A stretch of DNA of 64,000 nt from Nonlabens xylanidelens. Its GTDB lineage: Bacteria > Bacteroidota > Bacteroidia > Flavobacteriales > Flavobacteriaceae. Positions 5,833 through 64,000 of the stretch are shown one piece after another. The notes beneath the pieces are model-generated. The model made no database searches and was not told the DNA's origin. It saw only the letters and a list, made by a program, of their open reading frames with translations. Made by a program: the position numbers and the translations under genes. The stretch lies in the NCBI RefSeq assembly GCF_002934445.1, contig NZ_PTJE01000001.1, positions 992,001-1,056,000 on the forward strand. The letters run 5' to 3'. Position 1 is the first letter of the stretch. The number at the start of each line of letters is the position of its first letter.

Positions 5833-5854
5833 TTCCGCTTTCGCGAAAGCGGAA
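5833..5854. repeat. Palindromic repeat, core GCTTTCGCGAAAGC (copy 1, intergenic)
   Basis: A perfect 22-base palindrome: the 14-base core extended by TTCC on the left and GGAA on the right. It lies 8 bases beyond the stop of the deoxyhypusine synthase-like gene. It is one of 15 copies of the core in the window. Confidence 0.9.
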
Positions 5855-5862
5855 TTAAAAAT

Positions 5863-6831
5863 TTACATCTCTAATAAATAAGCAAAAATGAGTGGCGCCA
5901 CGATAGTCGCATCACTTTCTACTATAAACTTAGGTGTGTCTTGATCTAGTTTTCCCCAAGTGATTTTTTCATTAGGTACGGCTCCAGAATAACTTCCATA
6001 ACTAGTCGTAGAGTCAGATATCTGACAGAAATAACTCCAGAATGGCGTGTCGGTACGTTCCATATCTTGATACAACATAGGCACTACACAAATAGGGAAA
6101 TCTCCTGCGATTCCACCACCTATCTGGAAGAAACCGATTCCTTTTTGTGAATTATCAGTATACCAGTCTGCAAGGAAAGTCATGTACTCGATACCACTTT
6201 TTACAGTGCTGGCTTTTAACTCACCTTTTAATACATAACTGGCAAAAATATTACCCATCGTACTGTCTTCCCAGCCTGGAACGACGATTGGAAGATTGGC
6301 TTTGGCAGCGGCATACATCCATGAATTCTCAATAGGAATCTCATAATACTGTTCTAGGACACCACTTAAAAGTAGTTTGTACATATATTCATGAGGGAAA
6401 TAACGCTCGCCTTTTGCCTCTGCATCTTTCCATATCTCAAAGATGTGTTCTTGAAGTCTTCTAAAAGCCTCTTCTTCTGGAATACAAGTATCTGTAACAC
6501 GATTTAATCCTTTTTCTAATAAATCCCATTCATCTTGCGGTGTTAAATCGCGATAATTAGGGACTCTTTTATAATGGCTGTGCGCCACTAGATTCATCAA
6601 ATCTTCTTCTAGGTTTGCACCGGTACAAGAAATGATGTGTACTTTATCCTGACGTATCATCTCGCCAAATATCTTACCAATCTCTGCAGTACTCATTGCT
6701 CCAGCAAGTGAGACCAGCATTTTAGAACCTTGATTTAATTGCGTTTCATAACCTTTGGCTGCATCTACTAGCGCAGCACTATTAAAATGTAAAAAATAGT
6801 TTTCTATAAAATCTGTAATAGGCTTACTCAT
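5863..6831 (-). CDS. Deoxyhypusine synthase-like protein
   Basis: A 322-residue member of the deoxyhypusine synthase family, NAD-dependent enzymes that transfer the aminobutyl group of spermidine. The family's catalytic lysine is present as Lys294 in ITWGKLDQD. The glycine-rich IGGGIAGDFPI and the SDSTTSYGSYSGA segments also match. Bacteria lack eIF5A, the eukaryotic substrate, so such homologues are thought to make polyamines (for example homospermidine) or modify something unknown. It is the last gene of a minus-strand cluster with arginine decarboxylase and agmatinase, which supports polyamine metabolism. It starts 17 bases after the MarC stop. Confidence 0.85.
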   Translation of the reverse strand: MSKPITDFIENYFLHFNSAALVDAAKGYETQLNQGSKMLVSLAGAMSTAEIGKIFGEMIRQDKVHIISCTGANLEEDLMNLVAHSHYKRVPNYRDLTPQDEWDLLEKGLNRVTDTCIPEEEAFRRLQEHIFEIWKDAEAKGERYFPHEYMYKLLLSGVLEQYYEIPIENSWMYAAAKANLPIVVPGWEDSTMGNIFASYVLKGELKASTVKSGIEYMTFLADWYTDNSQKGIGFFQIGGGIAGDFPICVVPMLYQDMERTDTPFWSYFCQISDSTTSYGSYSGAVPNEKITWGKLDQDTPKFIVESDATIVAPLIFAYLLEM

Positions 6832-6848
6832 TGTCTTTTATTTAATAA

Positions 6849-7460
6849 TTAAACTAAATTGTAATAGTCACTTATACCGGTTAAGATGCTTTGTACAGCA
6901 TATGACGCTAGTATAAGTCCCATAACTTTACTTATTACTGTGATACCATAACTACCTATGCGATCTTGTATTTTATTTGCGGCTAGTAATATTAACGCGG
7001 TTAATATGATGACTACAAAGACCAAAGCGGTAGTAATGAGTTGATGTTGTATCGTGTACAAATGATTATCAGTCATAAGTACAACAGCCATTATCGCACC
7101 TGGTGATGCAATAGATGGGATGGCAACGGGAAAAATGGTAACGTGTTTATAGTCTGTGATTTCATTTTTCTCACTTTCTGGTTTTCCATCACCGAAAACC
7201 ATGGTCAGTGCAAAAAGAAAAAGAATAACCCCACCAGAAATTTGAAAAGCATCTAATGATACTTCCATTCCTTCTAGAATGAGCTGTCCTATAACTATAA
7301 AGAATAACAAAATCAAGAATGCAATAGCACTAGCCCTTATGGCAATTTTCTTTTTATGAGTATTGTCAAATTCTTTAGTCGCCTCTAGATATACAGGAAC
7401 GGTGCCTATAGGGTCTATGACGGCTATTAAGAAAAAGATGGTAGTGATTATTTGCAACAT
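6849..7460 (-). CDS. MarC family (UPF0056) inner-membrane protein
   Basis: A 203-residue protein with six hydrophobic segments, and the MarC signatures AVIDPIGTVPVYLEAT at the N-terminus and PVAIPSIASPGAIMAVV in the middle. The family's function is not settled; despite the name it is not clearly linked to multidrug resistance. The gene starts 4 bases after the agmatinase stop and precedes the deoxyhypusine synthase-like gene. It therefore sits inside the polyamine operon, and a transport or membrane role in polyamine handling is a reasonable inference. Confidence 0.88.
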   Translation of the reverse strand: MLQIITTIFFLIAVIDPIGTVPVYLEATKEFDNTHKKKIAIRASAIAFLILLFFIVIGQLILEGMEVSLDAFQISGGVILFLFALTMVFGDGKPESEKNEITDYKHVTIFPVAIPSIASPGAIMAVVLMTDNHLYTIQHQLITTALVFVVIILTALILLAANKIQDRIGSYGITVISKVMGLILASYAVQSILTGISDYYNLV

Positions 7461-7464
7461 AAAT

Positions 7465-8400: not shown

Positions 8401-8491
8401 GTTATAAGCTTAAAAAAAATTGGTTTTAAAATTCAATGTTTGCGTACAGCTGTATTCTGTTATAATAAAGCTTTTTTAATAAACTCAGTTA

Positions 8492-9880
8492 TTAATATCC
8501 CAAAATATCCAGCATGTGTTCGCTGGTTTGTTGTTCTTTAAAAACGCTAGTTTTAATAGCGCCATTTTCATCACGATCGATTAAAATATGTTTAGGAGCA
8601 GGTATTAAGCAGTGTTGTATGCCGCCATAGCCACCTATGCTTTCTTGATAAGCACCGGTATTAAAGAAACCTATGTAAAGAGGTTTATCTTTATGATATT
8701 TAGGTAAATAGATGGCGTTTATATTTTGCTCACTATTATAATAATCATCACTATCACAGGTAAGCCCTCCTAAAAGTACACGTTCATATTCTTCTTTCCA
8801 TCTATTGAGAGACAGCATAATAAAGCGCTTATTGATAGCCCACGAGTCAGGTAAAGTGGTGATAAAAGAACTGTTGATCATGTTCCATTTCTCACGATCG
8901 TTTTGTTGTTTTTGATACAGTACTTTATAAATAGCTCCACCGCTTTCTCCTACGGTAAAAGAACCGAATTCTGTAAAAATGTGAGGTACGTCTACTTTTG
9001 CTTCATCACAAACTTGTTTAATTTGAGAAACGATCTCGTCGATCATGTATTCATAATCAAAATCAAAAACTAAAGAGTTCTTGATAGGAAAACCACCACC
9101 TATATTTAAACTGTCCAGAGTTGGGCATATTTTCTTGAGACTTATATAGACCTTAAGACATTTATGCAACTCATTCCAGTAATAGGCATTATCACGTATT
9201 CCAGTGTTTATAAAAAAGTGCAGCATCTTAAGATCTACTTGATCATTAGTAGCTATTTGAGTCTTATAAAAATTTAGAATATTCTTATATCCTATACCTA
9301 GTCTACTGGTATAGAATTCAAATTTAGGTTCTTCTTCACTCGCGATACGTATGCCAGCATTAAACCTCTTTGAGGTAGCATCAGTAAGAAGTGTTAACTC
9401 TTCATAGTTATCTATGATAGGAACACAGTTCTGACCAGAATTTATTAATGCGGCAATGTTTTCTATGTATTGCTCTCGCTTAAAACCGTTGCAAATAACA
9501 AAAGTGTCATTCTTAATTTTACCTTCAGCTTTTAGCTTGTTGACTATATTAATGTCAAAGGCACTCGAGGTCTCGATGTGTATGTCGTTGCTTAACGCTT
9601 CGTCCAGTACATGTTTAAAATGCGAGCTTTTTGTACAATAACAGTAGTGGTATTTTGCTTTGTAGTCCGCTTTCGCGAAAGCGGAATCAAACCAACCCTT
9701 TGCACGGTTGATATTATCAGATATCTTAGGTAGATATGTGAATTTTAACGGCGCACCATATTGCTCTACTAGAGCCATTAGATCAATGCCGTGAAACTGA
9801 AGTTGGTCATCTTTCAGTTCAAACTCTTCCGTTGGGAAATAGTAAGTCTGGTTGATGAGGTCAATGTATTTTGTGTTCAA
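8492..9880 (-). CDS. speA: Arginine decarboxylase, fold III PLP enzyme
   Basis: A 462-residue PLP-dependent decarboxylase of the alanine racemase fold. The probable PLP lysine is Lys84 in YCYCTKSSHF, and the C-terminal active-site motif GGLTCDSDDYY carries the conserved Cys-Asp. It is shorter than E. coli SpeA (about 650 residues), as is common in flavobacterial versions. Placement directly upstream of agmatinase argues for arginine as substrate and putrescine as pathway product; ornithine or a carboxy-polyamine is a less likely alternative. A copy of the palindromic repeat lies in frame and encodes AFAKA at residues 67-71. Confidence 0.85.
   Translation of the reverse strand: MNTKYIDLINQTYYFPTEEFELKDDQLQFHGIDLMALVEQYGAPLKFTYLPKISDNINRAKGWFDSAFAKADYKAKYHYCYCTKSSHFKHVLDEALSNDIHIETSSAFDINIVNKLKAEGKIKNDTFVICNGFKREQYIENIAALINSGQNCVPIIDNYEELTLLTDATSKRFNAGIRIASEEEPKFEFYTSRLGIGYKNILNFYKTQIATNDQVDLKMLHFFINTGIRDNAYYWNELHKCLKVYISLKKICPTLDSLNIGGGFPIKNSLVFDFDYEYMIDEIVSQIKQVCDEAKVDVPHIFTEFGSFTVGESGGAIYKVLYQKQQNDREKWNMINSSFITTLPDSWAINKRFIMLSLNRWKEEYERVLLGGLTCDSDDYYNSEQNINAIYLPKYHKDKPLYIGFFNTGAYQESIGGYGGIQHCLIPAPKHILIDRDENGAIKTSVFKEQQTSEHMLDILGY
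9666..9685. repeat. Palindromic repeat (copy 2, in arginine decarboxylase)
   Basis: A perfect 20-base palindrome, the core plus TCC and GGA arms. It is read in frame as S-AFAKA-D. Confidence 0.9.
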
Positions 9881-12539: not shown

Positions 12540-12561
12540 TTCCGCTTTCGCGAAAGCGGAA
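12540..12561. repeat. Palindromic repeat (copy 3, intergenic upstream of mvaD)
   Basis: A perfect 22-base palindrome in the gap between the divergent permease and mvaD genes, ending 32 bases before the mvaD promoter element. Confidence 0.9.
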
Positions 12562-17269: not shown

Positions 17270-17959
17270 TCAGTCTTTTAATTTAGGGTTTACACCTTTA
17301 ATGTGTTCTTCTAGATAACGATTAATGCGTTCTTCACTTATCTTATCCATTCCCATGATGTTCTCTGATCTTAAAAAAGAGACTAAATCTATGGTAGTTA
17401 GATAGTCGTTGTATCGCTTTCGCGAAAGCGGAACATAACTATAATGCCACGGCTCATATTTAAAACCTGTGCGGTTATCATTCATCGTGTAAACCAGTTC
17501 AAAGTCATACTCTGAGCTGTGTTTTTCCATCCAGTCTTTAAGTTTGCAAAAAGGACCGGTTCCATGAAATTTAGACGGTACTAAAACACTACCACTATAT
17601 GTTGCGTTAGCGTCTATTAGGTCCATGTCGGTACCCCAGTGATGTCTAGAGGTGCCTGGAACAGTACTGTATTCTACGATTTTGTCAAAAATAGCGTCTG
17701 GTTCCATACCTTGTGCTGCATACTTTTTATACTTGCGATTCCAGATTTGTGTCTGTCTCGTAAAACTTCTATAACCAGAAACAACAGTGAGGTTAATGCC
17801 ATCTTTTGCAGCAGCTGCTTTCATGAGATTAAAAGCTGCTAAGGTTTCTTTTTCAAGAAGGTTTTTAGGATTAGGAGACTGGCCGGTTAATTTTTTTTGG
17901 TCTATTTGAGAAGTAGTTGCGGTTGCTAACAATAAGATGCAACATAATAGTCGTATCAT
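17270..17959 (-). CDS. D-alanyl-D-alanine carboxypeptidase, VanY/M15 family
   Basis: A 229-residue secreted protein with a signal peptide (residues 1-17, ending ATATTSQ). The zinc-binding His/Asp of SRHHWGTDMD and the ExxH of YEPWHYSYV are the LAS/M15 signature, with VVSGYRSFTRQ upstream. It is predicted to trim peptidoglycan peptide ends in the periplasm. The start overlaps the stop of the upstream GNAT gene by 4 bases, showing co-transcription. A palindromic repeat lies in frame and encodes LSRKR. Confidence 0.9.
   Translation of the reverse strand: MIRLLCCILLLATATTSQIDQKKLTGQSPNPKNLLEKETLAAFNLMKAAAAKDGINLTVVSGYRSFTRQTQIWNRKYKKYAAQGMEPDAIFDKIVEYSTVPGTSRHHWGTDMDLIDANATYSGSVLVPSKFHGTGPFCKLKDWMEKHSSEYDFELVYTMNDNRTGFKYEPWHYSYVPLSRKRYNDYLTTIDLVSFLRSENIMGMDKISEERINRYLEEHIKGVNPKLKD
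17415..17430. repeat. Palindromic repeat (copy 4, in VanY-like gene)
   Basis: A perfect 16-base palindrome containing the core, with one extra GGAA half-arm on the right. It is read as LSRKR. Confidence 0.9.
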
Positions 17960-21593: not shown

Positions 21594-22163
21594 ATGAAAA
21601 ATTTCAAAATTGTATTGTTATTATCAGTATTGAGTTTAAGTCTTTCTTCTTTCTCATTAGATAGTACAAGTGAAAAAGAAGTAGAGATATCTCGCTTTCG
21701 CGAAAGCGAGAACAACAACGATCTACACAAATACTATATTTCAGTGTCCAATGTAACTTATAGCGAGAGCGCAAAAAGTCTACAAATGATTACTAGATTT
21801 TTTATAGATGATTTAGAAGATGTGTTGAATTCAAGAATAGAAACACCGGTAGTACTGGGTGACGATGCTACTATACAAGATTTATATCCATTAATTAAAA
21901 GTTATCTAGATAAAAAGCTAGAGGTTAAAATCAACGATCAAGTTTCAAAAATTAACTTTTTAGGAGCCGAGTATGAAGGAGATCAAATAGCGCTTTACAT
22001 AGAAATACCTACTTTAAAAGAGCCTAAAGAGGTATCTATGAAGTTTAATGCCTTTCTAGAATTGTTTGAAGAACAGAAGAATCTGGTTCATTTAAAAATC
22101 AATGGAGAACGTCGCACGCTTTTAATGGATAAAAATAAGGGTACTGATACTGTGAAGTTTTAG
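21594..22163 (+). CDS. Secreted DUF6702-like protein
   Basis: A 189-residue protein with a signal peptide (1-22). After a short linker comes HKYYISVSNVTYSESAKSLQ, the start of a small beta-sandwich common in flavobacterial genomes beside M1 peptidases. The linker contains an in-frame palindromic repeat read as RFRES. The gene lies 62 bases upstream of the M1 peptidase, consistent with functional linkage. No enzymatic motif is seen. Confidence 0.75.
   Translation: MKNFKIVLLLSVLSLSLSSFSLDSTSEKEVEISRFRESENNNDLHKYYISVSNVTYSESAKSLQMITRFFIDDLEDVLNSRIETPVVLGDDATIQDLYPLIKSYLDKKLEVKINDQVSKINFLGAEYEGDQIALYIEIPTLKEPKEVSMKFNAFLELFEEQKNLVHLKINGERRTLLMDKNKGTDTVKF
21691..21710. repeat. Palindromic repeat (copy 5, in DUF6702-like gene)
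   Basis: A 20-base palindrome with CTC/GAG arms flanking the core in place of TCC/GGA. It is read as RFRES just after the signal peptide. Confidence 0.9.
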
Positions 22164-26316: not shown

Positions 26317-26952
26317 AGTAAGACCGTCTCTAACCGATAGAAGCACAGTTTGTAGTCTTGGGTCTTCCTTTAGCAACTTGTTATATTCTAATAGTACAGG
26401 GGTAGATTTGTCCTTGCTATTTACATTTTCTACGACTTTCCCGTGCCATAAAACATTGTCCGATATGATTAAGGTTCCTGAATGTACCTTTTCCATAATC
26501 TGGTGAAAGTAATTTACATAATTAGGTTTATCTGCATCGATGAAAATTAAATCAAAAGTCCCTTCTAGTTGCGGTATTATTTCTATTGCATCGCCTATTT
26601 TTTGATTTATGTTTATGTTGTTGGTTCCGCTTTCGCGAAAGCGTGCAAAGTATCCAGCAGCAAGTTCTTCTAGTTCTTCATTAATATCTATAGTGATAAG
26701 CTCGCTATTATTAGGCATACCCTCGGCAATGCAAAGTGCAGAGTAACCGGTAAAAGTGCCTATCTCAAGAACACGTTGAGGTGTTTTTAAATGAGAAATC
26801 ATACTTAGAACGCGGCCTTGATAGGGTCCAGAAAGCATGATCGGTTGCAATACTTTTTGATAGGTTTCTCTAGCAAGATCTTGTAGAATTTGTGGCTCGT
26901 CTTCAGAGTGTGCGACGATGTAGTTATCTAGATCTTTGGGTAAGAAAAACAT
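26299..26952 (-). CDS. Class I SAM-dependent O-methyltransferase
   Basis: A 217-residue methyltransferase of the catechol/caffeoyl-CoA O-methyltransferase group. It has the SAM motif VLEIGTFTGYSALCIA, the acidic TIDINEE, and FIDADKPNYVNYF with metal-binding Asp residues. The acceptor is unknown. It overlaps the PAP2 gene tail to tail. A palindromic repeat lies in frame and encodes RFRES between two conserved blocks. Confidence 0.9.
   Translation of the reverse strand: MFFLPKDLDNYIVAHSEDEPQILQDLARETYQKVLQPIMLSGPYQGRVLSMISHLKTPQRVLEIGTFTGYSALCIAEGMPNNSELITIDINEELEELAAGYFARFRESGTNNININQKIGDAIEIIPQLEGTFDLIFIDADKPNYVNYFHQIMEKVHSGTLIISDNVLWHGKVVENVNSKDKSTPVLLEYNKLLKEDPRLQTVLLSVRDGLTLSRVL
26628..26643. 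repeat. Palindromic repeat (copy 6, in O-methyltransferase)
   Basis: A perfect 16-base palindrome containing the core, with an additional TTC left arm. It is read as RFRES on the coding (minus) strand. Confidence 0.9.
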
Positions 26953-27851: not shown

Positions 27852-29129
27852 TTAATGATCATAGCTCATTCTATGGGCATCTAATTTTATAAAGATAAAT
27901 AATAAAATAGTGAAGCCCATGAGCCCACTACCACCATAACTCATAAATGGTAATGGAATCCCTACGGTAGGTAGTAAACCTATTACCATACCTACGTTAA
28001 CAAAAAAGTGAAGGAAAAATATTCCTGCTACTCCATAACCATAAATACGTGCAAACTGGTTGCGCTGACGCTCTGCCATGATAATTATGCGATAGATTAA
28101 GAACATAAATAATAAAATGGTGATCGATGTACCTAATAATCCAGAAACCTCTCCTATAGCGCTAAAAACGAAATCTGTGTGTTGTTCTGGTACATAGCCA
28201 CCTCTAGTTTGTGTGGCTTCTTCTAGTGGTTTTCCTGCCCAGCCGCCATTTCCTATTGCAATCATGCTCTGATTAATGTTATATCCTATACCAGCATCAT
28301 CTTGTACTCTACCCAATACGATATCAATTCGGTTTCTGTGTCTGTCTTCTAGTATGTTGTTAAAAATGTAACTGGTTGATAGGGTGTAAGCAATGCATAT
28401 GAATGTAGCAATTACATAGAGATATATTCTTGGTTTAGGAAGACGTTTGTTGTGTTTCCGCTTTCGCGAAAGCAAATATATAATTGCTACTACCACTACT
28501 ATTATTAAAATGATCCACCATATATTGATCACTAATGCTGCTAAGAATAAAGCTAAAGCGATAATTCCTAAACTAAGATACCATAAGGACAAACCTTCAC
28601 GATGCAATGCAAAGAAAAAGGCAGTGTAGATTAATGCACTACCAGGGTCTGGTTGCGGCACAATGAGTAGGGCAGGAAGTGCTATAATACCTGCGACTAT
28701 CATAAAATCCCTAACATTTTTTAGAGAAACGTTGAGCTGACTCAGAAATTTTGCAACGGCTAGTGCGGTTGCAAACTTTGCAAACTCACTAGGCTGAAAG
28801 GTGAATGAACCTATAGGATACCAAGAGACGGCACCATTTACTTCTTTACCGAAAATATACAAACCAGCTAGAGATAGCATGGAAACTACATAGATAAGTC
28901 CTGCAAATTGCTCGTAGAACTTAACTTCTATGGCTAGAATAATGATGATTAGTAAGGCGCAAACCCCTATAAATAAAAATTGTTTTCCATACACTTGATT
29001 AATGTCGGTAATCGAGGTGTATTCTAATACTGGAGCAGCACTGTAGATGCTAAAAAGTCCTATAAAAACTAATGCAGTATATATTAATATGGCTGCTATG
29101 TCATATTTGGGTCTATCACCTATCCCCAT
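27852..29129 (-). CDS. rodA: Rod-shape SEDS glycosyltransferase RodA
   Basis: A 425-residue polytopic SEDS protein that polymerises lipid II strands for elongation together with PBP2. Family signatures include VPQPDPGSALIY, GGWAGKPLEEATQTRGGYVPEQHTDF (the long periplasmic loop) and VGIPLPFMSYGGSGL. The middle insert around residues 200-235 is longer and basic, and contains an in-frame palindromic repeat (LSRKR). It starts 1 base after the PBP2 stop. Confidence 0.95.
   Translation of the reverse strand: MGIGDRPKYDIAAILIYTALVFIGLFSIYSAAPVLEYTSITDINQVYGKQFLFIGVCALLIIIILAIEVKFYEQFAGLIYVVSMLSLAGLYIFGKEVNGAVSWYPIGSFTFQPSEFAKFATALAVAKFLSQLNVSLKNVRDFMIVAGIIALPALLIVPQPDPGSALIYTAFFFALHREGLSLWYLSLGIIALALFLAALVINIWWIILIIVVVVAIIYLLSRKRKHNKRLPKPRIYLYVIATFICIAYTLSTSYIFNNILEDRHRNRIDIVLGRVQDDAGIGYNINQSMIAIGNGGWAGKPLEEATQTRGGYVPEQHTDFVFSAIGEVSGLLGTSITILLFMFLIYRIIIMAERQRNQFARIYGYGVAGIFFLHFFVNVGMVIGLLPTVGIPLPFMSYGGSGLMGFTILLFIFIKLDAHRMSYDH
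28460..28473. repeat. Palindromic repeat (copy 7, in rodA)
   Basis: The 14-base core with a left TTCC half-arm only. It is read as LSRKR in a basic cytoplasmic-type loop. Confidence 0.88.
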
Positions 29130-39786: not shown

Positions 39787-40542
39787 TTAGTCATTCATTT
39801 CTATCTTAGATTCTAAAGAAAGTATATCTGCTTTAAGTTGTGTGTCTATATGTTTAAGAGATGCTTTTTTCAGTGTCTCTAGTGCTTTTTTATCGTCGTT
39901 TAATTTATGTTGATAAATAGATGCTAGTTTGCGATAGGTGAGTAAAGAACCGCCAGTGTCTACTGCTTTTTGATAAGATACGACAGCATCATCATACTCT
40001 TCTTCATATTCATCTATATAACCATGTGCTAGATGTCCATCTACTGGCGATATTTTAATCAATTGGTCTGCATAGGATCTGCTTTTACTTATAGATCCAC
40101 CCACTATTCCAGGCAACTCACAGTACAGTTGAGATAAGGCATGCCTAGATTCTATATGTTTAGGGTCTAATTCTGCAGCTTTTTTTAAATGTTTTTTAAT
40201 GTCGTCTAGCATTCCTAGAGCTTTTAATTTTGAAGAGCTCTTGGCATATAAACCCATTGCACCGCCATATTTAAAGTTATATCGGGCGCTTTTTGAATTG
40301 CTGTCTATTAACTTTTTATAATATCCCATAGCTTTTTCAAAATTATTTTGATGGCTAGCAATATCACCTAATCGTTCTATGACGTCTAGGTCAGAATGGT
40401 CTTGTTCATATAATTTGGTAAATGCAATTTGTGCTTTGTCAAATTTCTCAGCTTTGAATAATTGTTCCGCTTTCGCGAAAGCGGACTGACCATAAGCAAC
40501 TGTGCTCATTAAAAAGAGTAGGGCAATAAATGTCTTCTTCAT
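39787..40542 (-). CDS. Secreted TPR-repeat protein
   Basis: A 251-residue protein with a signal peptide (1-18, ending AYGQ). Several tetratricopeptide-like helical repeats follow (QLFKAEKFDKAQIAFTKLYE, NNFEKAMGYYKKLID, DDAVVSYQKAVDTGGS), and the gene probably encodes a periplasmic scaffold. A palindromic repeat is read as AFAKA immediately after the cleavage site, forming the start of the first repeat. It is divergent from the macroglobulin gene and upstream of mpl. Confidence 0.85.
   Translation of the reverse strand: MKKTFIALLFLMSTVAYGQSAFAKAEQLFKAEKFDKAQIAFTKLYEQDHSDLDVIERLGDIASHQNNFEKAMGYYKKLIDSNSKSARYNFKYGGAMGLYAKSSSKLKALGMLDDIKKHLKKAAELDPKHIESRHALSQLYCELPGIVGGSISKSRSYADQLIKISPVDGHLAHGYIDEYEEEYDDAVVSYQKAVDTGGSLLTYRKLASIYQHKLNDDKKALETLKKASLKHIDTQLKADILSLESKIEMND
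40465..40484. repeat. Palindromic repeat (copy 9, in TPR gene)
   Basis: A perfect 20-base palindrome. It is read as S-AFAKA right after the signal peptide. Confidence 0.92.
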
Positions 40543-40661: not shown

Positions 40662-43600
40662 ATGAGACATTTTTTAATCTTTATACTGTTAGTTTTAGGA
40701 AGCAACTTTCAGTCATATGCACAAGACTATTACACTGCAAAGTGGGAAAATGTCGAGAAACTAGAGGTGGAGAATAGGGTAGAAGATGCTAGAAAGATAG
40801 TGCGCGACATCTATAAACACGCACAACGTAAAAAGGATGATGACCAGTTAGTAAAAACATTTCTCTTCAGAGCAAAATTTAATTTAATCAAAGAAGAGAA
40901 AGGGCAACAACTAGTTTTAGCAGAGTTATCTGGGCTTATAGATCGAGCAAAATTCCCTAAAAAAAATGTGTATCACACCATTTATGCAAAGCTTTTAAAT
41001 GATTATGTGAGTCAGAATCGCTGGAAGTTACAGCGCCGCACTGCTGGCGCAACGGTAGATGAAAATGATTTTGAAACTTGGGATATTAAAAAATTCTATG
41101 ATGTGATTTCTACACATCATAAACTAGCTTTAAAGGATAAAGAAGCATTAGGTAAACTACCTGTTTCAGAATTTGCCGCTGTATTAAATGCACGTCCATT
41201 AGGTAGAGAATTGCGACCTACTTTATTAGATCTACTAGCTAGAGAGGCACTTGATTTTTATAAAACAGGTTATTACGGAATCACTAGACCTAAAGAAACT
41301 TATGTCATCACAGATAAAAATGCTTTTCGCTCTACAGATGTTTTAAGAGAAATAAAAAGACCCAAAGGAGATACTGTTTTTTCTAAATACGATGTGTTAC
41401 AGCTTTATGCAACGCTAGAAACCTTGCATAAGAATAAAAATGACCACGGTGCTTGTGTGACTATTTTATTAGAACGACTGGACTATGAAAAAAGCTTTTT
41501 AAACGCCAATAGGGAATTACCAGTATACAAATCTATTCATGAACAGTTATTAGCGACCTATAAAGGTAAAGCGGTAAGTACAATAGTTATGTATAACCTG
41601 GCTCAATATCATTATGAGCAGAGTAATTATAAAGATAAAAGTACTCGCCAGGCAGATCGTGATCTAGCAATTGCGATTTCAAAAAAGGCAATCGAGCAGT
41701 TTCCAGATTCTTATGGAGCTATTAAATGTAGTTCGCTACTTTCTAGTATTTACGCACCTAGTTTAAGAATACAGCATCAGGATCAGGTAATGCCTAATGA
41801 ATTGCATCGTGGCGTGATTCAATATAAAAATGTAAATGAGGCGTCCATCCATTACATTAAAGTGGCGCATGATTTTTTAAGCTTAAAAGGTAATAGAGAT
41901 TCATTGTATCGCGTCACTTTAAAAACAGCGCAAAAAGAAAATCGTGTGGCTCTTTCTAAAACCATAAAGTTAGAGTCTGCGCAGGATACTTATGATCATA
42001 GTTATCAATATAATGTAGATGGGTTAGATGCTGCCACCTATCTAGTAGTGATAGAAACTAAAAGTGATAACAGTCAGGATATTGCAGCTAGTTTAATGAC
42101 CGTTTCTCAAATGTCTATTTTAAATAAACGTGTAGGAAACACCATTGCTGTCCAGGTGCTAGATAAAAAAACAGGAAAACCTCTTAAGAATGTAAAGCTA
42201 GAGCTATCTCAGCTCAATTCTAATTACACAACCACTGCTATTACAGATAGAGATGGAAAAGCTGTTTTAGAAAACTCTAACGGTAAAAATAGTAGGTATA
42301 CGTTAAAAGCTGTTCTTGGAGACGATATTGTTGTGAATCAGGTGTATTTTTATTACAATAGATATTACACAAAAAGTGATAAAAAAGAAGAGGTAGAAGA
42401 AGAGAGCGAAGTAACTGTAAAATCGTATACCTATCTAGATCGTGCCATTTATAGACCAGGACAGACGGTTTATTATAAAAGTATATTGGTAGCAAATGAT
42501 GGGAAAACTTCTTTTGTAGTTCCTAATGAAGAATTTTTTCTGACCGTATATGATGCAAATGACGAAGAAATCCAAGAGATAACAGCAACTACTAATGAAT
42601 ATGGTAGTTTTCATGGTGAGTTCACACTGCCCAAAGAAACCTTAACCGGTCAGTTTTATATAGAAATAGATAGCGACGAGGATTCTGATTTTTGGGATAA
42701 TGTTTATGATTTTAATGACGACTATGATAATGAGACTAAATTTCAAGTAGAAGAATATAAAAGACCTCGTTTTAAAGTAGATTTTAAAAAGGTAAAAGAA
42801 TCTTATGCTATGAATGACTCTGTTGTGGTTACCGCTTTCGCGAAAGCGTTACTAGGATCCAACATTACAGATGCCAACGTACATTATAAAGTAACAAGAT
42901 CTGCTAGATTGCCATGGTGGAGATATTCTGGATATCATTCTGGTGATCAAGTAATCGTTGATAGTGATGATCTAGAAACAGATGAAGAATTTGTAACTAA
43001 TAATAAAGGAGAGTATGCCATAAAATTTAAAGCCATTGCAGACTCTACACTAGTAGCAAAAGATCTCCACCCTATTTACACCTATAGAATAGATGCTGAG
43101 GTGGTAGACATTAATGGCGAGACTAGAACGGCTAGCACTAGTGTGCGCGTCGGTAAACAAAGTATAGAGGTATCTCTTTTAAATGCTACTACCTTATCTA
43201 CAGATGATAACCAGGTTAAAGTAGCCGTTAAAAACTTAAATGGAGAACTGGTAGAAGCGCAGGTAGAATTACAGATAAGACAACTTAAAACACCAGATCA
43301 TGTCATTATACCATCTGGATTACCTGCTGCAGAATTCTATCAAAGCGATGACAAAACCTATAGAGATAAATTCCCTTATGCAGAATTGCGTGAGAGTGAA
43401 AAACCTGCAGATTATAAAACGGCGCCCATTATTTTTAAGAAGCGCATGACAATAGATTCATTAACTACAGTAGAATTACCTATTACAAAAAACTGGGATA
43501 ATGGCAACTATGTAGTTTATGTTAAAGCTGTGGAAACAGGAAAAAGTAAAAGTCTAGATAACGAGGTAGATTATGTAGAAGAAATTAATAAAGTAGAGGT

Positions 43601-46600
43601 TTGGGCAAATAAACAACTGCCTGTAAATCCAGAGATCATATCACACGACCTGCAGATAAAGGATAATGTAGCGACCGTAAACTACTTTACCTCTATGGAT
43701 GGAGTTTACATGAATCTTATAACTTATGACTTTAAAGGACTTAAAAAGGACGAAGTAATATTTTTACCCAAAGGAAAAACAACTAAAAAATACAAGCTTA
43801 AAAATGCAGATAAGAACCTACTTAAATTTAGGTATTCTGTGCAAAAAGAAAATAAGTACACAAGTAATAATTTTATGGCGCAAGGCAGCCAGAAAGCAGC
43901 AACTGTTTTTAATATAGAGACCAATACCTTTAGAAATAAACTCTATCCAGGCATGGAAGAAGAGTGGTCGTTTACCATAAAAGATCAAAAGGGTAATGGT
44001 ATGAATGGCGAGGTGCTGGCCAGTATGTATGATAAAAGTCTAGATGAATTTACAGTAAAGAACTGGGATGGGTTTAGTTTTAACACTTATGAGAGTGGTT
44101 ATGAGCCTAGCTTTTATAGTCAGGTTAATTACTTAAATACAAGCAGTACTAGATTGTACCTTCCATATAGACAGGTGCAAATGCCGCAACTGGATTTTGA
44201 CCAATTCAAATATTTTGGATTATCCTTTACAGGAAATATAAATCAATACAATAATTACAAAGCTAGAATAGAAGTTAAGTATGAGAAAGTAAAACCTATT
44301 GCTGGTTATATCACTGGTCGCGTTACAGATACAGATGGAGGTTTGTTGGGAGCTGTAGTTTCTGTTAAAGGTAGTGCGGAGAATGCTACAACTGATTTTG
44401 ATGGGTTATATACAATTAAAGCATCTCCAGAGGATACTTTAGTTTTTACCTATTCCGGTTATGATACAGTAGAAATTTTAGTAGGTAATCAAAATGTGAT
44501 AAGTCCATTAATGGATGCTAGTCTGGATACGGTGGTGGTAACAGCTTATAGAACTACTACAAAATCAATGTCTAGCGTTTCTTCTATCATTATAACATCT
44601 GAGTCTGCAGATGGAATTAATGATTTTAACACCTATCGAGGTGATACTTATCAAAGGGTTATTGGACCAGATGGTAAAATCTCAATTGTTACGGCAAACG
44701 GTATTGCATATGATACTCTTAGTAATGGCAAAGTAATACAAAGACTAGAAGGCCAGGTAGCAGGTTTAACGGTGCAAACAGCTACTGGCCAGCCAGGAGC
44801 AAATGCACTTATTCAATTGAGAGGAATTAGTTCCATTAATGGAAATACAGAGCCTTTAATAATAGTAGATGGTGTGCCGGTGGATGAAGATTTCTTTAAA
44901 AGTCTAGACGTTTCTCAAATTAAAGAAACAGCCATTTTAAAAGGAGATAACGCAACAGCTATTTATGGCAGTCGTGGAGCAAATGGTGTTATTATTATCT
45001 CGACCAAAGCTGGTGTGAGTGCAAACGATCTAGTACTTCAAGAAATGTCGTTGAATAATGTACAGATAAGAAAGGATTTAAAAGAAACCGCTTTTTTCTT
45101 ACCAGAATTAAAAACAGATAAAAAAGGTAATCTTAAATTTTCATTCACTTCTCCAGAGATGTTAACCCAATGGAAATTAAGACTCTTTGCGCATAATAAA
45201 AAAGCAGAAACCGCTTATCTAGAAAAACTGGTCGTGACTCAAAAAGAGCTGAGTCTTATACCTAACGCTCCGCGATTCTTAAGAGAAACAGATACCATTA
45301 GATTCTCAACTAAGATTGCCAATTTAAGTGACGCAAAAATGGAAGGAATCGCGACCTTAAAATTATTTAATGCGCTGACCATGCAACCTATAGATCAAGA
45401 GTTGAAAAACACAAATGCATTGCAAAATTTCAGTGCAGAAAAGGGTGGTAACGCATCGGTTAACTGGACTTTTGTTATTCCAGTAGGTACACAAGCGGTT
45501 ACCTATCGTGTCATTGCAAAGTCAGATAAATTCTCTGATGGAGAAGAAAATACCCTGCCAGTACTTACTAATAGAATGCTGGTTACCGAGTCTAGATCGC
45601 TTTGGGTACGTGCTGGACAGACAGAAGAAGTGGTAATGGATAAATTAGAAAATAATACTTCCACAACACTAGAAAACCATCAAATGACATTTGAATACAC
45701 CTCTAATCCTAGCTGGTATGCGATAAAATCACTGCCGTATTTAATGGAATATGAGCATGAATGTGCAGAGCAAACATTCTCTAGATATTATGCAAACGCG
45801 ATGGCAGCACATATTTTAAACAGCAGTCCTAAGGTAAAAGAGGTTTTTGATAGTTGGGCTGCAAACGGTTCTAGTAAAAGTAAGTTAGAACAAAATGAAG
45901 AGTTGAAATCTGTGATTCTTGCTCATACTCCATGGTTGCGAGACGCACAAAGTGAAGAGCAAAAACAACAGCGTCTTGCGGTGCTCTTTGACCTAGATAA
46001 AACAGCTCGTGAGAAAAAGAAAACTCTGGCAAAACTAGAAGAGAAACAAGGTGATTCAGGTGGTTTTCCATGGTTCAGCGGTGGGAATACTAATGAGTAT
46101 ATCACTAGACATATCGCTGCAGGAATAGGTCATTTGAATAAATTAGGTGTTAATGATGCAGATAGACCACAAACAGACCGCATGTATAAAAATGCCATCG
46201 CAGCAACAGATCGTGCATGGGTGCAACGATTCAATGACTATCTTAAGTATAGTAAGAATTTAAAGAAATATAACTTCGGTAGTAGTTACTGGCATTATCA
46301 ATATGCACGTAGTTTTGAGCCGTCGGTTCTCGATAAAAAGATGAATAAGGTATTAGAAGATGGTAAGAAGTTAGCTTTCGCGAAAGCGGAAAAAGAATTT
46401 GCCTCTCAACCTTTATACACGCAATTATTAATGGCAATCACCTTGCATAGAAATGGAGAAAAGAAAGTGGCTGGGAAAATTTTAGAAGGTTTAAGACAAA
46501 CGGCGGTAGTCAACAAGGAAAACGGTATGTACTGGAAAGAAAATACCAACTCCTGGTACTGGTACAGCAGCGATATAGAAACACAAGCACTAGCGATCGA

Positions 46601-48498: not shown

Positions 48499-49451
48499 TG
48501 AAAAATTCAAAAATAAAAGTAGCCCTTGCTCAAATATCACCAGTGTGGTTGGATAAAAAAGCGACATTAGAAAAGATTATGTCTACGCTGCAAGAAGCGG
48601 TTAATGAAAAGGCAGAACTGGTTGTTTTTGGAGAAGGTTTATTGCCTGGTTATCCATTTTGGCTTGCTCTTATGGATGGCGCTGCGTGGAATAAGGATGC
48701 AGTAAAAGAGTTGCATAGACATTACGCTCTCAATGCAGTTAGTATAGAAAATGGAGATTTAGATGATATTTGCGCTTTCGCGAAAGCGGAACACATATCC
48801 ATCTATATAGGTATAATAGAACGACCAGAAGATCGAGGTGGGCATAGTCTGTATGCGAGCATGGTTTACATAGATCAAAATGGAATTATTCAAAGTGTAC
48901 ATAGAAAATTACAACCTACCTATGATGAGAGATTAACCTGGTCTCCAGGAGATGGAAATGGCCTGGTAACGCATAAATTAAAGGACTTTACAGTTAGTGG
49001 TTTAAACTGTTGGGAGAACTGGATGCCGTTGCCACGTGCTGCGATGTATGCACAAGGAACAAATTTACATGTAGCTTGCTGGCCAGGAAGCGATCATAAT
49101 ACAAAAGATATTACTAGATTTATCGCTCGAGAGGGACGTTGTTATGTTTTATCAGTTTCTAGTATGATGTTTAAGGAAGATTTTCCTGAAGGAACACCAC
49201 ACTTAGAAGAGTTACTTAATAATGCACCTGCTGTACTGGCTAATGGTGGTAGCGCTATTGCTGGACCGGATGGAGAGTGGATTATAGAACCGCAAATAGG
49301 TAAAGAAGAAATTATCTATGCGACGTTAGATTATAACAGAGTGCTAGAAGAGCGTCAAAATTTTGATGCCGTAGGACATTATTCTCGTCCAGATGTAACC
49401 CAGCTACATGTGAATAGAGAACGACAAAGTACAGTAAAGTTTACTAATTAA
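48498..49451 (+). CDS. Nitrilase (carbon-nitrogen hydrolase)
   Basis: A 317-residue nitrilase-superfamily enzyme with the triad Glu46 (VFGEGLLPGYPFW), Lys137 (VHRKLQPTYDE) and Cys171 (GLNCWENWMPLPR). The CWEN(W/Y)MPL motif and the LPGYPFW stretch are those of true nitrilases, which convert nitriles to acids and ammonia; the physiological substrate is unknown. It is translationally coupled to the UbiA gene and lies 21 bases before the GYDIA kinase. An in-frame palindromic repeat reads AFAKA. Confidence 0.9.
   Translation: MKNSKIKVALAQISPVWLDKKATLEKIMSTLQEAVNEKAELVVFGEGLLPGYPFWLALMDGAAWNKDAVKELHRHYALNAVSIENGDLDDICAFAKAEHISIYIGIIERPEDRGGHSLYASMVYIDQNGIIQSVHRKLQPTYDERLTWSPGDGNGLVTHKLKDFTVSGLNCWENWMPLPRAAMYAQGTNLHVACWPGSDHNTKDITRFIAREGRCYVLSVSSMMFKEDFPEGTPHLEELLNNAPAVLANGGSAIAGPDGEWIIEPQIGKEEIIYATLDYNRVLEERQNFDAVGHYSRPDVTQLHVNRERQSTVKFTN
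48773..48788. repeat. Palindromic repeat (copy 12, in nitrilase)
   Basis: A perfect 16-base palindrome with a right GGAA half-arm, read as AFAKA. Confidence 0.9.
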
Positions 49452-53721: not shown

Positions 53722-53745
53722 ATTCCGCTTTCGCGAAAGCGGAAT
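53722..53745. repeat. Palindromic repeat (copy 13, intergenic, longest)
   Basis: A perfect 24-base palindrome, the longest in the window (core plus ATTCC and GGAAT arms). It lies between the CBS/CorC gene and the PPIase gene. Confidence 0.92.
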
Positions 53746-55269: not shown

Positions 55270-55855
55270 TATTATTTTGTGTTACAAAGTTGTCGACTGG
55301 GTCGCGTGTAAAATGCTTTTTCAAATCCTCTCTAGCGTCTAAGATTGCTCCTGTTATTTTTCCTACGCTCTCTTTATTTTGTCCATCAACAATAAGTGTC
55401 TCTGATGGTTCATTGGTAAAAATCCACTTTGCGGTTTGATCCCAATATAATTGATCTCCTGTAAAAGTAGTACCGTCAGAGGTAATTATATGAACGTCAC
55501 CTTTAAGGTCAACTAGTTTTGTGTCATCATACATGATGCCGCTATTTGCGGTAATTACGGTTACTTCAGTTTTGTCATTGCTGTAATCGTAAACTTCTAC
55601 CTTGATCCCTTCTGGAAATTCTGTGTAAGGAAAGTCATCATTTGAAAAATCTAACATTTTTTTTCCTTTTACGGTAAGTTTTAATTTGCCGCTGTCGGTA
55701 TGTTTTAACAACATTTCTTCTATCTCACCCATAGGTTCGTTAGAAGCGATTTCCATTTTCTGGATTTCTTTGAGGTTATCATCACATGACGCAAAAAAAC
55801 AGATCACGGCTATTGCCGTGATCGTGATTTTTAATATGTGAATGTAAGATCTCAT
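55262..55855 (-). CDS. lptC: LPS export protein LptC
   Basis: A 197-residue lipoprotein-type protein (lipobox CFFASCDDN near residue 23) with an LptC/OstA beta domain: FPEGIKVEVYDYSNDKTEVTV, MYDDTKLVDLKGDVHII and GDQLYWDQTAKWIFT. It forms part of the periplasmic bridge that carries LPS to the outer membrane. The ATG at 55855 overlaps the stop of the TPR gene by one base (TAATG), and is preferred to an upstream start 30 bases earlier inside that gene. Confidence 0.9.
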   Translation of the reverse strand: MRSYIHILKITITAIAVICFFASCDDNLKEIQKMEIASNEPMGEIEEMLLKHTDSGKLKLTVKGKKMLDFSNDDFPYTEFPEGIKVEVYDYSNDKTEVTVITANSGIMYDDTKLVDLKGDVHIITSDGTTFTGDQLYWDQTAKWIFTNEPSETLIVDGQNKESVGKITGAILDAREDLKKHFTRDPVDNFVTQNNNE

Positions 55856-57213
55856 TATGGGATTCTTACAGATTCTCCTATCCAACAGTTAAAAGTGATT
55901 GTGTCACCAGAATTGTATGCACTGTTTGCAAATATATCAGCTTTACTCGGTGCAGCACCATTATAACTAGCTACATACTTAGCAGCAGTTCTCTTTAATG
56001 ATGGGTCTACTCTTCCTGCTTTACTTGCATATCTAGCAGCAACCCAGTAAATAGCTCTTTTTTCTAGAGGGTTTGCTCCACAGCTACTTGTGCTGTTTGC
56101 AACCATGTCTGCTATTTTTAAATAAGGCTGTCCAAAAGAAGGTCTTAATTCTGTAGCGTCTAGATATGCTCTTCTTGCACTACCGAATTGTCCTTTTGAT
56201 TTATATAAGTTACCTTTTTTGTAAAAGATGTATGCTTTAGTATCGTTATCGATTCCTAATTCAATAGCTTGATCCCAGTACTTGAATTTCTCGTCAGTAC
56301 TTGTAGCGATGTTACCTAGACCGTAAGCAGTTTTTGCACTAGGGTTAATAGCGTGTAATGCTTTTACAGATTTAATGTATAGTGGGTCATCAGTACAGTC
56401 TTTTTTCTGTAATCTAACTAGTACGTTGCTTAACCATTCTTTACTTGTTTTGTTAGCTTCAAACTCAGCATCGTACAATGGGATTAATTTATCACAGTCT
56501 GCAAGTTCACCTAACGTACCGTTTACACTACGCATTACGATACCATAATTTTTAAGGTTCTTTTCTTGATAACCTATTTGCTTTTCTTCTTTATCAGTAA
56601 GAGCAGTAGTCTCTTGCTTTGATAAAAGATCAGATACTACTTTAGATCTCTCATCTTGTAAGGATTCAATATTACTAGTTAACTCATCGTAGATTTTAAA
56701 AAGCTCTTGAAGACTTAATTTATTTGCTTTAAACTGCTTTTCAGCTAGGCTAAAGTAAGTCATCATACCGTTAGGGTCTGTAAAGTTTTCTCTGTCTGAG
56801 TTAAATAAATTGTTAAGCATGTTGAACTGCTCTTCTGTAGTACCTACTTTGTACTTCTGCATAGTTCTAGCTATTTCAATTTTCTTTCTAGTTACATCTA
56901 CTTTGTCAGCATACTTAGTAACTTGAGTGTTTAACATGTCTAATAGACCGTCAACGTTTTCTTTTTGCTCACCTTCTTTTTTCTTAAGACGGTATTCAAA
57001 GATTTGCTCACCATATTGGTAAATCGCAAGACTTGCATCTGGACATTTTTCTACTAAAGGTCCTAATTGTTTATAAGCCTCACTATAGTTTTTTGATTTT
57101 GCGTTTTCAGCAAATATGCTCAACATTACGTTACAGTCGTCTGGTGCTTGCGCTTTCGCGAAAGCGAAACTGAAAACAGTTAATGCTATTAATAAGTTAT
57201 TTCTAAGTATCAT
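55855..57213 (-). CDS. Secreted TPR-like protein conserved in Flavobacteriia
   Basis: A 452-residue periplasmic protein with a signal peptide (1-21). Helical repeats run through the chain (SLAEKQFKANKLSLQELFKI, AYIFYKKGNLYKSKGQFGSA, ARRAYLDATELRPSFGQPY). The C-terminal end ITFNCWIGESVRIP is distinctive. A palindromic repeat encodes AFAKA at the end of the signal peptide. It lies between the beta-barrel and lptC genes, suggesting an outer-membrane assembly role. Confidence 0.85.
   Translation of the reverse strand: MILRNNLLIALTVFSFAFAKAQAPDDCNVMLSIFAENAKSKNYSEAYKQLGPLVEKCPDASLAIYQYGEQIFEYRLKKKEGEQKENVDGLLDMLNTQVTKYADKVDVTRKKIEIARTMQKYKVGTTEEQFNMLNNLFNSDRENFTDPNGMMTYFSLAEKQFKANKLSLQELFKIYDELTSNIESLQDERSKVVSDLLSKQETTALTDKEEKQIGYQEKNLKNYGIVMRSVNGTLGELADCDKLIPLYDAEFEANKTSKEWLSNVLVRLQKKDCTDDPLYIKSVKALHAINPSAKTAYGLGNIATSTDEKFKYWDQAIELGIDNDTKAYIFYKKGNLYKSKGQFGSARRAYLDATELRPSFGQPYLKIADMVANSTSSCGANPLEKRAIYWVAARYASKAGRVDPSLKRTAAKYVASYNGAAPSKADIFANSAYNSGDTITFNCWIGESVRIP
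57151..57166. repeat. Palindromic repeat (copy 14, in TPR-like gene)
   Basis: A perfect 16-base palindrome containing the core, read as AFAKA where the signal peptide h-region meets the cleavage site (SFAFAKAQAP). Confidence 0.9.
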
Positions 57214-60721: not shown

Positions 60722-60742
60722 TTAGTTTCAATTTAGGGTATT

Positions 60743-60768
60743 AAAAAAGCCCTTAAAAATAAGGGCTT
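60743..60768 (-). terminator. Terminator after gldJ
   Basis: AAGCCCTTA pairs with TAAGGGCTT around AAAA. On the minus strand it is followed by six Ts, ending the gldJ message before murF. Confidence 0.88.
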
Positions 60769-60796
60769 CTTTGTAAATATGAAAGGTCTCGATTTA

Positions 60797-62488: not shown

Positions 62489-62540
62489 TTTAAGAATTTG
62501 TTTTGAAAAATGAGTCGCAATATAATTATTTCAATCTAAT

Positions 62541-62599
62541 ACGAAAGCATTAATTCGTATAATTCGCGTTACATTTGTCGTTCAAGCATATTAAACGAC
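62541..62599. promoter_or_regulatory. Inverted repeats in the gldJ-porU divergent region
   Basis: ACGAA-N8-TTCGT (62541-62558) and GTCGTT-N11-AACGAC (62577-62599) lie in the 196-base region between the two gene starts. The plus-strand TACATTTG (62570-62577) between them matches a -7 promoter element for porU, 107 bases before its ATG. They may bind a regulator of both genes. Confidence 0.35.
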
Positions 62600-62684
62600 G
62601 ACGAATTGCGATTATTATGCGTTATCTTAAAATTTTGTGAATATTTTTAAATACTAATTCATATTAACAGCCGTTAGTGTATCG

Positions 62685-64000
62685 ATGAAGCATTTTTTCT
62701 ACTTAATAATTTTACTTCTTAATGCTAGCGCGCTTGCTCAAAGTGGTCGAGAGGTAATTGATTGGAAGGATTTGGAATCCTTTGATATCGGTGATCAGCA
62801 AATTAAAGTTCCGTATTTTAGAGAAAACCATAGTTTTGATGGACGAGATTTATTTTGGATTAAAAGTTTTCAAATAAATCAAAAAGTTGATGAATTCTCT
62901 GTTGAAATAACAAATTTGAAGACAGAGACGATAAGAGTAACAGATCTTGGACAGTTAAATCCATCACAAATTTCTAATGGGTTTCAATATTCTTTAAGAA
63001 ATGCGCTTTCGCGAAAGCGTAACTATGCTCAATTAAAAATAACACCAATTTTTAAGGATGGAAATCAGTATAAGAAGGTAGTTTCTTTTAACTACAGCTA
63101 TTCTTATGCGCCGGCGCAATTTCAGGTTAAAAACGCAAGCTTTAGTAATTCTATTTTAGCATCTGGAAATTGGTACAGATTTAAGGTAGAGAGAACTGGT
63201 GTAAATAGAATAAGCAGGTCTTTCTTATCTAATTTAGGTATAGATGTTAATTCTATCGACCCTGCTAGAATTAAGGTTTATGGTCAGGGAGGTACATCGT
63301 TGCCTTTAGTTAATAGTGATGATCAATTATTTGATGCTCCTGAGGTTGCTATTACCGTTACAGGTGGTGAAGATGGTAGGTTTGATAATGGAGATGAGAT
63401 CTTGTTTTACGGAATTGCTACAAATACAGATTACGTTAGTGAAAACGATAGTTTTATTAATCCTTATACAGATGAGTCTTTTTATTATCTAACGGTAGAT
63501 GGGGCTATTGGTAAGCGTATTTTACCATTTGTGCAACCCAGTGCTGTACCGGCTATTACTTATGATTATTATTATGCTAGGCAACACCATGAGGTGGATC
63601 TTGTAAATATAGCCTCTATAGGTCGTGTATGGTATGGTGAGCGTTTTGATTTTGAACCAGACCAAGTTTTTGAATTTGAGTTTGAAAATGTACGAAGTAC
63701 TTTACCTGCCGTAGTGAGAATAGCCACTGGAGCAGTGTCAGATAATGACACAAGTATGAGCTTTAGTTTAAATGATGTAGTTCTTGGTACTTCTTCGTTA
63801 AGTGGTGTGGCAGGGCAAAACATACGCGCTGCGGCTAGGGCAACTCTACTAGTGTCTAATGCTAGTATTAGTTCTGATATGGTTTCTGTTAATGTGTCTT
63901 ATGATAATTCTGGAAACCCTGGAGCGTCTGGTTATTTGGACTATATAAGTTTAGAGATACCTCAGAGTTTAACCGGTAAAAACGAACAATTTAGATTTGA
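62685..64000 (+). CDS. porU: Type IX secretion sortase PorU, 3' end cut by window
   Basis: The frame opens with ATG at 62685 and a signal peptide (MKHFFYLIILLLNASALAQ), then runs 438 codons to the window edge without a stop. The sequence matches the N-terminal part of PorU, the gingipain-like (C25) peptidase that removes type IX sorting domains at the surface: ASGNWYRFKVERTGVNRIS, IDPARIKVYGQGG, GRFDNGDEILFYG and SFYYLTVD. The C25 catalytic Cys/His lie beyond the window. The divergent gldJ neighbour is the usual flavobacterial order. A palindromic repeat reads LSRKR near residue 110. Confidence 0.9.
   Translation, partial: MKHFFYLIILLLNASALAQSGREVIDWKDLESFDIGDQQIKVPYFRENHSFDGRDLFWIKSFQINQKVDEFSVEITNLKTETIRVTDLGQLNPSQISNGFQYSLRNALSRKRNYAQLKITPIFKDGNQYKKVVSFNYSYSYAPAQFQVKNASFSNSILASGNWYRFKVERTGVNRISRSFLSNLGIDVNSIDPARIKVYGQGGTSLPLVNSDDQLFDAPEVAITVTGGEDGRFDNGDEILFYGIATNTDYVSENDSFINPYTDESFYYLTVDGAIGKRILPFVQPSAVPAITYDYYYARQHHEVDLVNIASIGRVWYGERFDFEPDQVFEFEFENVRSTLPAVVRIATGAVSDNDTSMSFSLNDVVLGTSSLSGVAGQNIRAAARATLLVSNASISSDMVSVNVSYDNSGNPGASGYLDYISLEIPQSLTGKNEQFRF
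63004..63019. repeat. Palindromic repeat (copy 15, in porU)
   Basis: A perfect 16-base palindrome containing the core, read as LSRKR. Confidence 0.9.

Follow-up and report, generated by a model that had tools for sequence, protein, structure and literature searches.

HIP1 of cyanobacteria and the uptake sequences of Pasteurellaceae and Neisseriaceae are the nearest described relatives of the element treated here, an exact 14-bp palindrome, GCTTTCGCGAAAGC, noticed in a 64,000-nucleotide stretch of the Nonlabens xylanidelens contig NZ_PTJE01000001.1 (positions 992,001 to 1,056,000, forward strand; from now on referred to as the window). HIP1 is the 8-mer GCGATCGC, which PMC4390886 links to methylases specific for its inner part. 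Like HIP1, the Nonlabens palindrome is exact, occurs in many copies per genome, is lineage-specific and has an unsettled function, but its unit comprises 14 bp together with flanks of ~19 bp, its inner cores are not notably enriched and its copies are evenly spaced. The uptake signal sequence (USS) of Pasteurellaceae and the DNA uptake sequence (DUS) of Neisseriaceae, which are taken up through type IV pili, are likewise dispersed, short and exact motifs with an intergenic excess and AT-rich flanking tracts, but neither is palindromic, and the type IV pilus ATPase does not track the Nonlabens motif. Close inverted pairs of USS or DUS form terminators and are in excess between convergent genes, as stated in PMC1852404, while Nonlabens shows no such excess.

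The palindrome fails a tested feature of HIP1 and of the uptake sequences, and its broad kind is that of a highly iterated genomic word. The sites of the parS/ParB, Noc, SlmA and MatP-matS systems are short palindromes read by a dimer on double-stranded DNA, as we presume the Nonlabens site to be, but they are regional and number tens of copies or fewer, whereas the Nonlabens palindrome is found chromosome-wide and in hundreds of copies. It is an unusually clear example of a sequence word on which selection acts along an entire bacterial chromosome, being exact, evenly placed, kept in place where other 14-mers are lost, and setting rare codons. Tentatively, and with slightly more reserve than conviction, we read it as the centre of a ~52-bp two-fold site for a dedicated, probably dimeric protein that serves chromosome organisation or upkeep. 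A search of open-licence PubMed Central gave no paper on this palindrome, the papers among the matches listed holding the 10-mer only, and the part of PMC5217627 (on motif discovery) that was available does not mention flavobacteria.

Genome-wide occurrence and taxonomic distribution

The initial annotation had reported 15 exact copies in the window and regarded this number as far above chance. All 15 were found again, the positions given there being the starts of the longer palindromes and agreeing within 1 base; 12 lie in reading frames and three are intergenic (Table 1; the frame around the last copy leaves the window). No one-mismatch copy of the 14-mer is present in the window and 100 dinucleotide shuffles of the window gave 0 matches. 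The excess also holds outside the window, contrary to the refuting outcome named in the initial annotation, since the complete assembly (3.28 Mb, 21 contigs) contains 664 exact copies, 738 when at most one mismatch is allowed and 766 with at most two, compared with 0, 0 and 11 for a reversed-pattern control, which gives a density of ~1 copy per 5 kb along the chromosome. Measured from arm to arm the palindromes of the window are 14 to 24 bp long, and the statement that the intergenic copies are the longest holds for those at 5837, 12544 and 53727 (22, 22 and 24 bp) but has to be shared with the coding copy at 21694, which also reaches 22 bp.

All 23 Nonlabens genomes examined carry the 14-mer, with 421-930 copies at no more than one mismatch (the two lowest counts come from genomes that are 77-78% complete). 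In a sample of 299 genomes of the family at least one copy was found in 61, and five genomes have high counts: the genome studied here (664), G010 (578) and G242 (609) of the same genus, and G190 (408) and G206 (857), which belong to two other genera. The next-highest genomes hold 19, 17 and 16 copies. A wider search among 395 genomes of the phylum, a sample without G190 and G206, gave 700 occurrences of the 10-base core TTTCGCGAAA in the genome studied and 29 in the next. Two variants with the same arms were also counted; GCTTTNNNNAAAGC reaches high counts in no genomes but those of Nonlabens, G190 and G206 (the next genome of the 299 having 61), and CTTTNNNGAAA, counted in 235 genomes, is high in the same three and rises in G073 and G202 too.

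A FastTree phylogeny built from 87 PurH sequences does not unite Nonlabens, G190 and G206, and it pairs G190 with G144 (support 0.94), a genome with 9 copies of the 14-mer. The identity of the 14-mer in separate lineages suggests that the gene for a putative reader can move between genera, or that many losses have happened, and the existence of three carrier lineages placed apart in the tree offers a comparative route to that gene.

Spacing along the chromosome

Within 400 kb of the genome studied the 87 gaps between copies range from 1,268 to 10,417 bp and have a coefficient of variation (CV) of 0.45, compared with 0.98 in 5,000 random placements. There is no gap below 1 kb where 17 were expected, only four exceed 8 kb against 14.7 expected, three of these four containing a one-mismatch copy, and the largest measures 10.4 kb against an expected 22.8 kb. 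A second Nonlabens species, G304, was sampled as 40 pieces of 20 kb over its 2.9-Mb chromosome (two pieces are oddly low in GC, probably owing to masked bases) and gave 200 copies, 1-10 per piece, with a variance/mean ratio of 0.70 and a gap CV of 0.47 against 0.91 for random placement; 8 of its 160 gaps (5%, the smallest being 270 bp) are shorter than 1 kb where 26% were expected. Short gaps are scarce in the other carriers too, with 0 of 33 in G190 (5.2 expected) and 1 of 43 in G206 (8.5 expected), the latter being less regular than the genome studied (CV 0.73, p 0.02).

The scarcity of both short and long gaps indicates that a single site suffices for a few kilobases and that a second one nearby is redundant. 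This length scale, a site within a few kilobases and, in the genome studied, none within ~1 kb, is a measurable constraint on any reader. The uniform distribution argues against region-specific organisers, and a site of that type (parS, Noc, matS) was rejected on the occurrence of copies in all 40 pieces of G304, on their variance/mean ratio and on the lack of an origin-terminus trend as judged by eye.

Gene context and retention in place

When genes were called by a crude open reading frame (ORF) rule, 132 of 303 copies were intergenic compared with 12% of the bases, a 3.6-fold excess, leaving 171 that are not intergenic. The intergenic copies assigned to a gap type (n = 123) are divided between same-direction, divergent and convergent neighbours as 0.60, 0.24 and 0.16, the corresponding shares of bases being 0.59, 0.24 and 0.17, and gene orientation is irrelevant to their placement. 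Such indifference argues against roles in transcription, and a transcription-factor site was rejected, as each type of intergenic gap holds copies in proportion to its bases and the flank halves do not covary. In coding regions copies occur in all three frames, where they read AFAKA, RFRES or LSRK, and the codons imposed by the motif include rare ones, TCG making up 3.7% of the serine and CGA 8.5% of the arginine codons in the window.

The copies of the window were aligned with 20 of the 22 other Nonlabens genomes, of which 19 show 69-76% nucleotide identity and one 89%. They are intact in 79 of 94 aligned comparisons, against 2,162 of 58,873 control 14-mers (4%) in the same alignments. Most alleles lacking the motif align without a gap of motif size, an indication that most copies arose by substitution, and from these alignments copies appear to be both gained and lost mostly in this way. 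Two copies of the window lie close to differences in length: the one in purH falls within a six-residue insertion of PurH that is common to the genus and missing in 11 other genomes of the family examined, and the one in rodA adjoins a stretch that is missing in three alignment rows from outside the genus. Beside the mre cluster, in a gene which by its position alone we take to be mreC, G190, G206 and eight Nonlabens have copies at nearly one spot but in different frames, and one further in-frame site is common to G190 and G206.

Anatomy of the site

Parts of the motif were counted in 1.80 Mb of Nonlabens sequence containing 419 exact, 39 one-mismatch and 19 two-mismatch copies. Outside the exact copies the half-site GCTTTC occurs 509 times (539 expected), its extension GCTTTCG 64 times (83 expected) and the 8-base inner core TTCGCGAA 21 times (20 expected), while the inner TCGCGA shows a slight excess, 215 against 171, near-copies included. 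With half-sites and inner core near or below expectation neither is strongly favoured alone, and the 14-mer acts as a unit. In palindromes of the HIP1 type single deviations are biased towards the two end nucleotides. The mismatch in the 39 one-mismatch copies falls on the outer base in 13, on the fifth base of the half-site in 13 and on the sixth in 9.

On each strand the 5' flank is T-rich and C-poor to about -19 in Nonlabens and G206. In the genome studied C stays at a frequency of 0.01-0.09 throughout -4 to -19, apart from position -14 (0.15), against a background of 0.18. High values of T are found at -3, -4, -7, -10 and -12 to -14. The same pattern appears when only intergenic copies are taken (63 in Nonlabens, 26 in G206), with a different preferred base at -2. 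No covariation was detected at symmetric flank positions 3-20 (z 0.17 and -0.23), pairing being as frequent as composition predicts. The independent variation of the two halves argues for a two-fold site on double-stranded DNA and not for a hairpin, and we read the whole site of ~52 bp as the two half-sites of a protein dimer or as a symmetric requirement of DNA shape. A hairpin or Rho-independent terminator was rejected on the flanks without covariation, on the lack of an excess between convergent genes and on the order of T to the left and A to the right, which is opposite to that of a terminator.

Phages and other mobile DNA

A 16-mer of the motif was found in 41 stretches (30 records) of IMG/VR. 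Twenty-two AT-rich viral records contain 84 copies, at most one mismatch being allowed, over a length of about 487 kb, and a further, GC-rich record contains 1 copy in 111 kb. Portal, capsid, terminase and tape measure proteins of tailed phages are encoded in the motif-bearing records. Also present are repressors, a tyrosine integrase and a Mu-type transposase together with its partner, on account of which at least two of the phage groups look temperate. When related viral stretches less than 93% identical are compared, 51 of 60 comparisons retain the motif, whereas 7.1% of control 14-mers are retained. Among the 40 most diverged comparisons (58-64% identity) the motif persists in 35 and the controls in 0-2%, these pairs repeating a few sites. 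The Persicivirga (Nonlabens) phages P12024S and P12024L, 35.7 kb each, have no copy even at two mismatches and no integrase among their annotated genes. The pattern is that of a mark carried by DNA resident in the chromosome, and the fact that temperate phages both have it and preserve it points to an advantage for resident DNA more than to passive spreading. Plasmid and phage collections searched with a consensus query gave 1 and 2 records, respectively, likely by chance, in a weak test where a 16-base match hardly reaches the E-value limit.

In several of the genomes with low counts (G101, G078, G215, G087, G012 and G111) a few exact copies cluster in genes resembling those for metal efflux, as judged by eye without a family search, and their spacing is common to different genera. 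Two of these copies lie 933 bp apart in four genera and many have C-poor flanks; they are probably part of mobile islands from carrier hosts.

A proposed chromosome-wide mark and its alternatives

According to the reading that we favour, a putative dimeric DNA-binding protein would mark the chromosome along its full length, once every few kilobases. One site would cover its own neighbourhood of that size, so that a close second site would add nothing and a long gap would be costly, and the temperate phages that carry and keep sites would gain a benefit as resident DNA. With a shade less confidence than in the site itself, we picture an organising or upkeep mark whose reader gene passes between genera, after which the host would evolve several hundred exact sites, each a few kilobases from the next, changing its protein sequences where required, and temperate phages would adopt the mark. 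The protein reader, its dimeric state, the movement of its gene between genera and its architectural or maintenance job are what we infer here. We know of no described bacterial system with an evenly spaced, chromosome-wide organising mark. Identifying the reader would reveal a new form of chromosome organisation or maintenance or, alternatively, a hitherto undescribed signal for uptake or repair. It would also explain why temperate phages adopt the mark.

Several observations weigh against an organising mark of this kind. The gene for the recogniser was not found, no whole-genome comparison of gene content having been made, and the mechanism is derived from the anatomy of the site; the sites of matS, parS, Noc and SlmA are far fewer and regional, and the absence of an origin-terminus trend across the pieces of G304 was judged by eye. 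In G190 the regularity of spacing is not significant (CV 0.76, p 0.08) and the flank signal is much weaker (42 copies, 46% GC). Outside the 14-mer the 10-base TTTCGCGAAA occurs 17 times against 2.3 expected and the 12-base CTTTCGCGAAAG 13 times against 0.1, these being copies in which an outer base is altered. Related species are pooled in the retention counts and the trials are not independent, the contrast still being large, and the aligned copies of the window are kept in 0 of 2 cases in G206 and 0 of 2 in G190, the other carriers; nor are they kept elsewhere outside the genus (0 of 2 in G076 and 0 of 1 in G036). The viral records were picked for having the motif and 23 of the 30 were counted, the two motif-free phages are close relatives that represent one lineage and so one case, and the PurH tree is built on a single gene and has weak deep nodes (0.46-0.69).

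The most serious alternative is a DNA uptake signal, which we consider unlikely. Competent cells would favour motif-bearing DNA, and this bias in uptake together with recombination would create and maintain copies at a spacing that puts one on most fragments. The even spacing, the lineage restriction and the intergenic excess (132 of 303 copies compared with 12% of the bases) fit this idea, as do the AT-rich flanks, seen in Nonlabens and G206 and weakly in G190, which resemble those that PMC1852404 gives for the USS of Haemophilus. Riemerella columbina, a competent flavobacterium, moreover prefers its own DNA in transformation (PMC7965970). Against uptake stands that PF00437 (pilus/secretion ATPase) scored above the cut-off in just 3 of the 13 Nonlabens tested out of the 23 in the set (the genome studied, at C8:126205-127296, G299 and G318), the other 10 being without it, and in 0 of 2 when G190 and G206 were searched; a route of uptake by type IV pili lacks support. 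That temperate phages keep the motif in place is furthermore not an outcome that a passive drive would favour. In the prophages of Haemophilus and Neisseria uptake signals are sparse, and the exact palindromy found here is, to our knowledge, unlike that of any uptake signal.

A two-sided Chi-like site, at which the palindrome would switch a helicase-nuclease resecting broken ends in either direction, seems improbable. The density near one per 5 kb and the evenness over the whole chromosome resemble those of Chi, and the stretch lying 5' to the core on either strand is T/G-rich and C-poor, the kind of strand on which RecA loads well. Chi sites are, however, 5-8 nt long, directional and read on one strand, whereas in Nonlabens a 14-bp palindrome and its symmetric flanks matter and the half-sites are not enriched (GCTTTCG at 64 against 83 expected). 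An exclusion below ~1 kb and a retention of 79 in 94 are, as far as we know, not features of Chi.

An origin like that discussed for HIP1, in which the copies would be a product of methylation and biased mismatch repair and no reader protein would be needed, is very improbable. It is favoured by the likeness to HIP1 as a highly iterated palindrome (PMC4390886), but outside the 14-mer the 6- and 8-base inner cores occur at or near expectation, the constrained unit is 52 bp, and the even spacing with exclusion of close copies does not agree with it. A methylase or restriction site is disfavoured on the same counts, because a methylase would read every TCGCGA or TTCGCGAA and both are near expectation outside the 14-mer. 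The initial annotation had compared the palindrome with HIP1, with uptake signals and with binding sites for an organising or methylating protein, without choosing among them. There is strong support for a signal that functions genome-wide, with a binding site as the best supported of the three and uptake as a possible one; methylation at TCGCGA is disfavoured.

A mobile or REP-type (repetitive extragenic palindrome) repeat spreading by insertion is hardly credible and largely refuted: REP elements and bacterial interspersed mosaic elements (BIMEs) do share several hundred palindromic copies per genome with the Nonlabens motif, and the purH copy in its genus-wide 6-aa insertion and the rodA copy beside a stretch missing outside the genus would suit insertion, but REPs are intergenic and mobile, whereas 171 of 303 copies here are not intergenic, those in genes use all three frames, most motif-free alleles align without a motif-sized gap and 79 of 94 copies are kept in place.

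Copies in the window

Table 1. Position, context and conservation of the 15 exact copies of the palindrome in the window
Copy	Position	Context	Read as	Palindrome (bp)	Presence in aligned genomes
1	5837..5850	intergenic		22	kept in G010 and G308
2	9669..9682	PLP-dependent decarboxylase gene, 8492-9880(-)	AFAKA	20	6/7 incl. own
3	12544..12557	intergenic, divergent genes on either side		22	kept in G010, absent in G308
4	17416..17429	VanY-type carboxypeptidase gene, 17270-17959(-)	LSRK		3/3 incl. own
5	21694..21707	DUF6702 gene, 21594-22163(+)	RFRES	22	2/3 incl. own
6	26629..26642	O-methyltransferase gene, 26299-26952(-)	RFRES		4/10 incl. own
7	28460..28473	rodA/ftsW-family gene, 27852-29129(-)	LSRK		20/24 (20/21 Nonlabens, 0/3 others)
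8	34000..34013	purH, 33524-35071(-), inside 6-aa insertion	LSRK		20/21 Nonlabens, 0/4 others
9	40469..40482	TPR-protein gene, 39787-40542(-), near N-terminus	AFAKA	20	5/7 incl. own
10	42834..42847	ORF 40662-47408(+)	AFAKA		4/6 incl. own
11	46374..46387	ORF 40662-47408(+)	AFAKA		4/4 where stretch aligns, incl. own
12	48774..48787	carbon-nitrogen hydrolase gene, 48498-49451(+)	AFAKA		10/10 incl. own
13	53727..53740	intergenic		24	kept in G010, G242 and G308
14	57152..57165	ORF 55855-57213(-), near N-terminus, no Pfam match	AFAKA		3/5 incl. own
15	63005..63018	open frame 62658-63998(+) reaching window end, no Pfam match	LSRK		4/4 incl. own

Other repeated words

A second repeated word, CTTTACGGAA, which is not palindromic and shares CTTT...GAA with the Nonlabens motif, was seen in genomes G722, G723 and G726. 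The genome of an uncultured Mesonia contains CTTTACGGAAA 368 times, that of Haloflavibacter putidus 334 times and that of Mesonia algae 74 times, with one copy each in Mesonia mobilis and another Mesonia. Over 400 kb of Haloflavibacter the 10-mer has 88 copies, its one-base variants averaging 4.4, and its spacing is uneven (CV 1.37). The rise of CTTTNNNGAAA in G073 and G202 amounts to about 1.7- and 2-fold over the reversed control and possibly reflects another repeated word. A mild rise of TTTCGCGAAA, 27 against 7 in the control, was seen in G042, which has 6 copies of the 14-mer.

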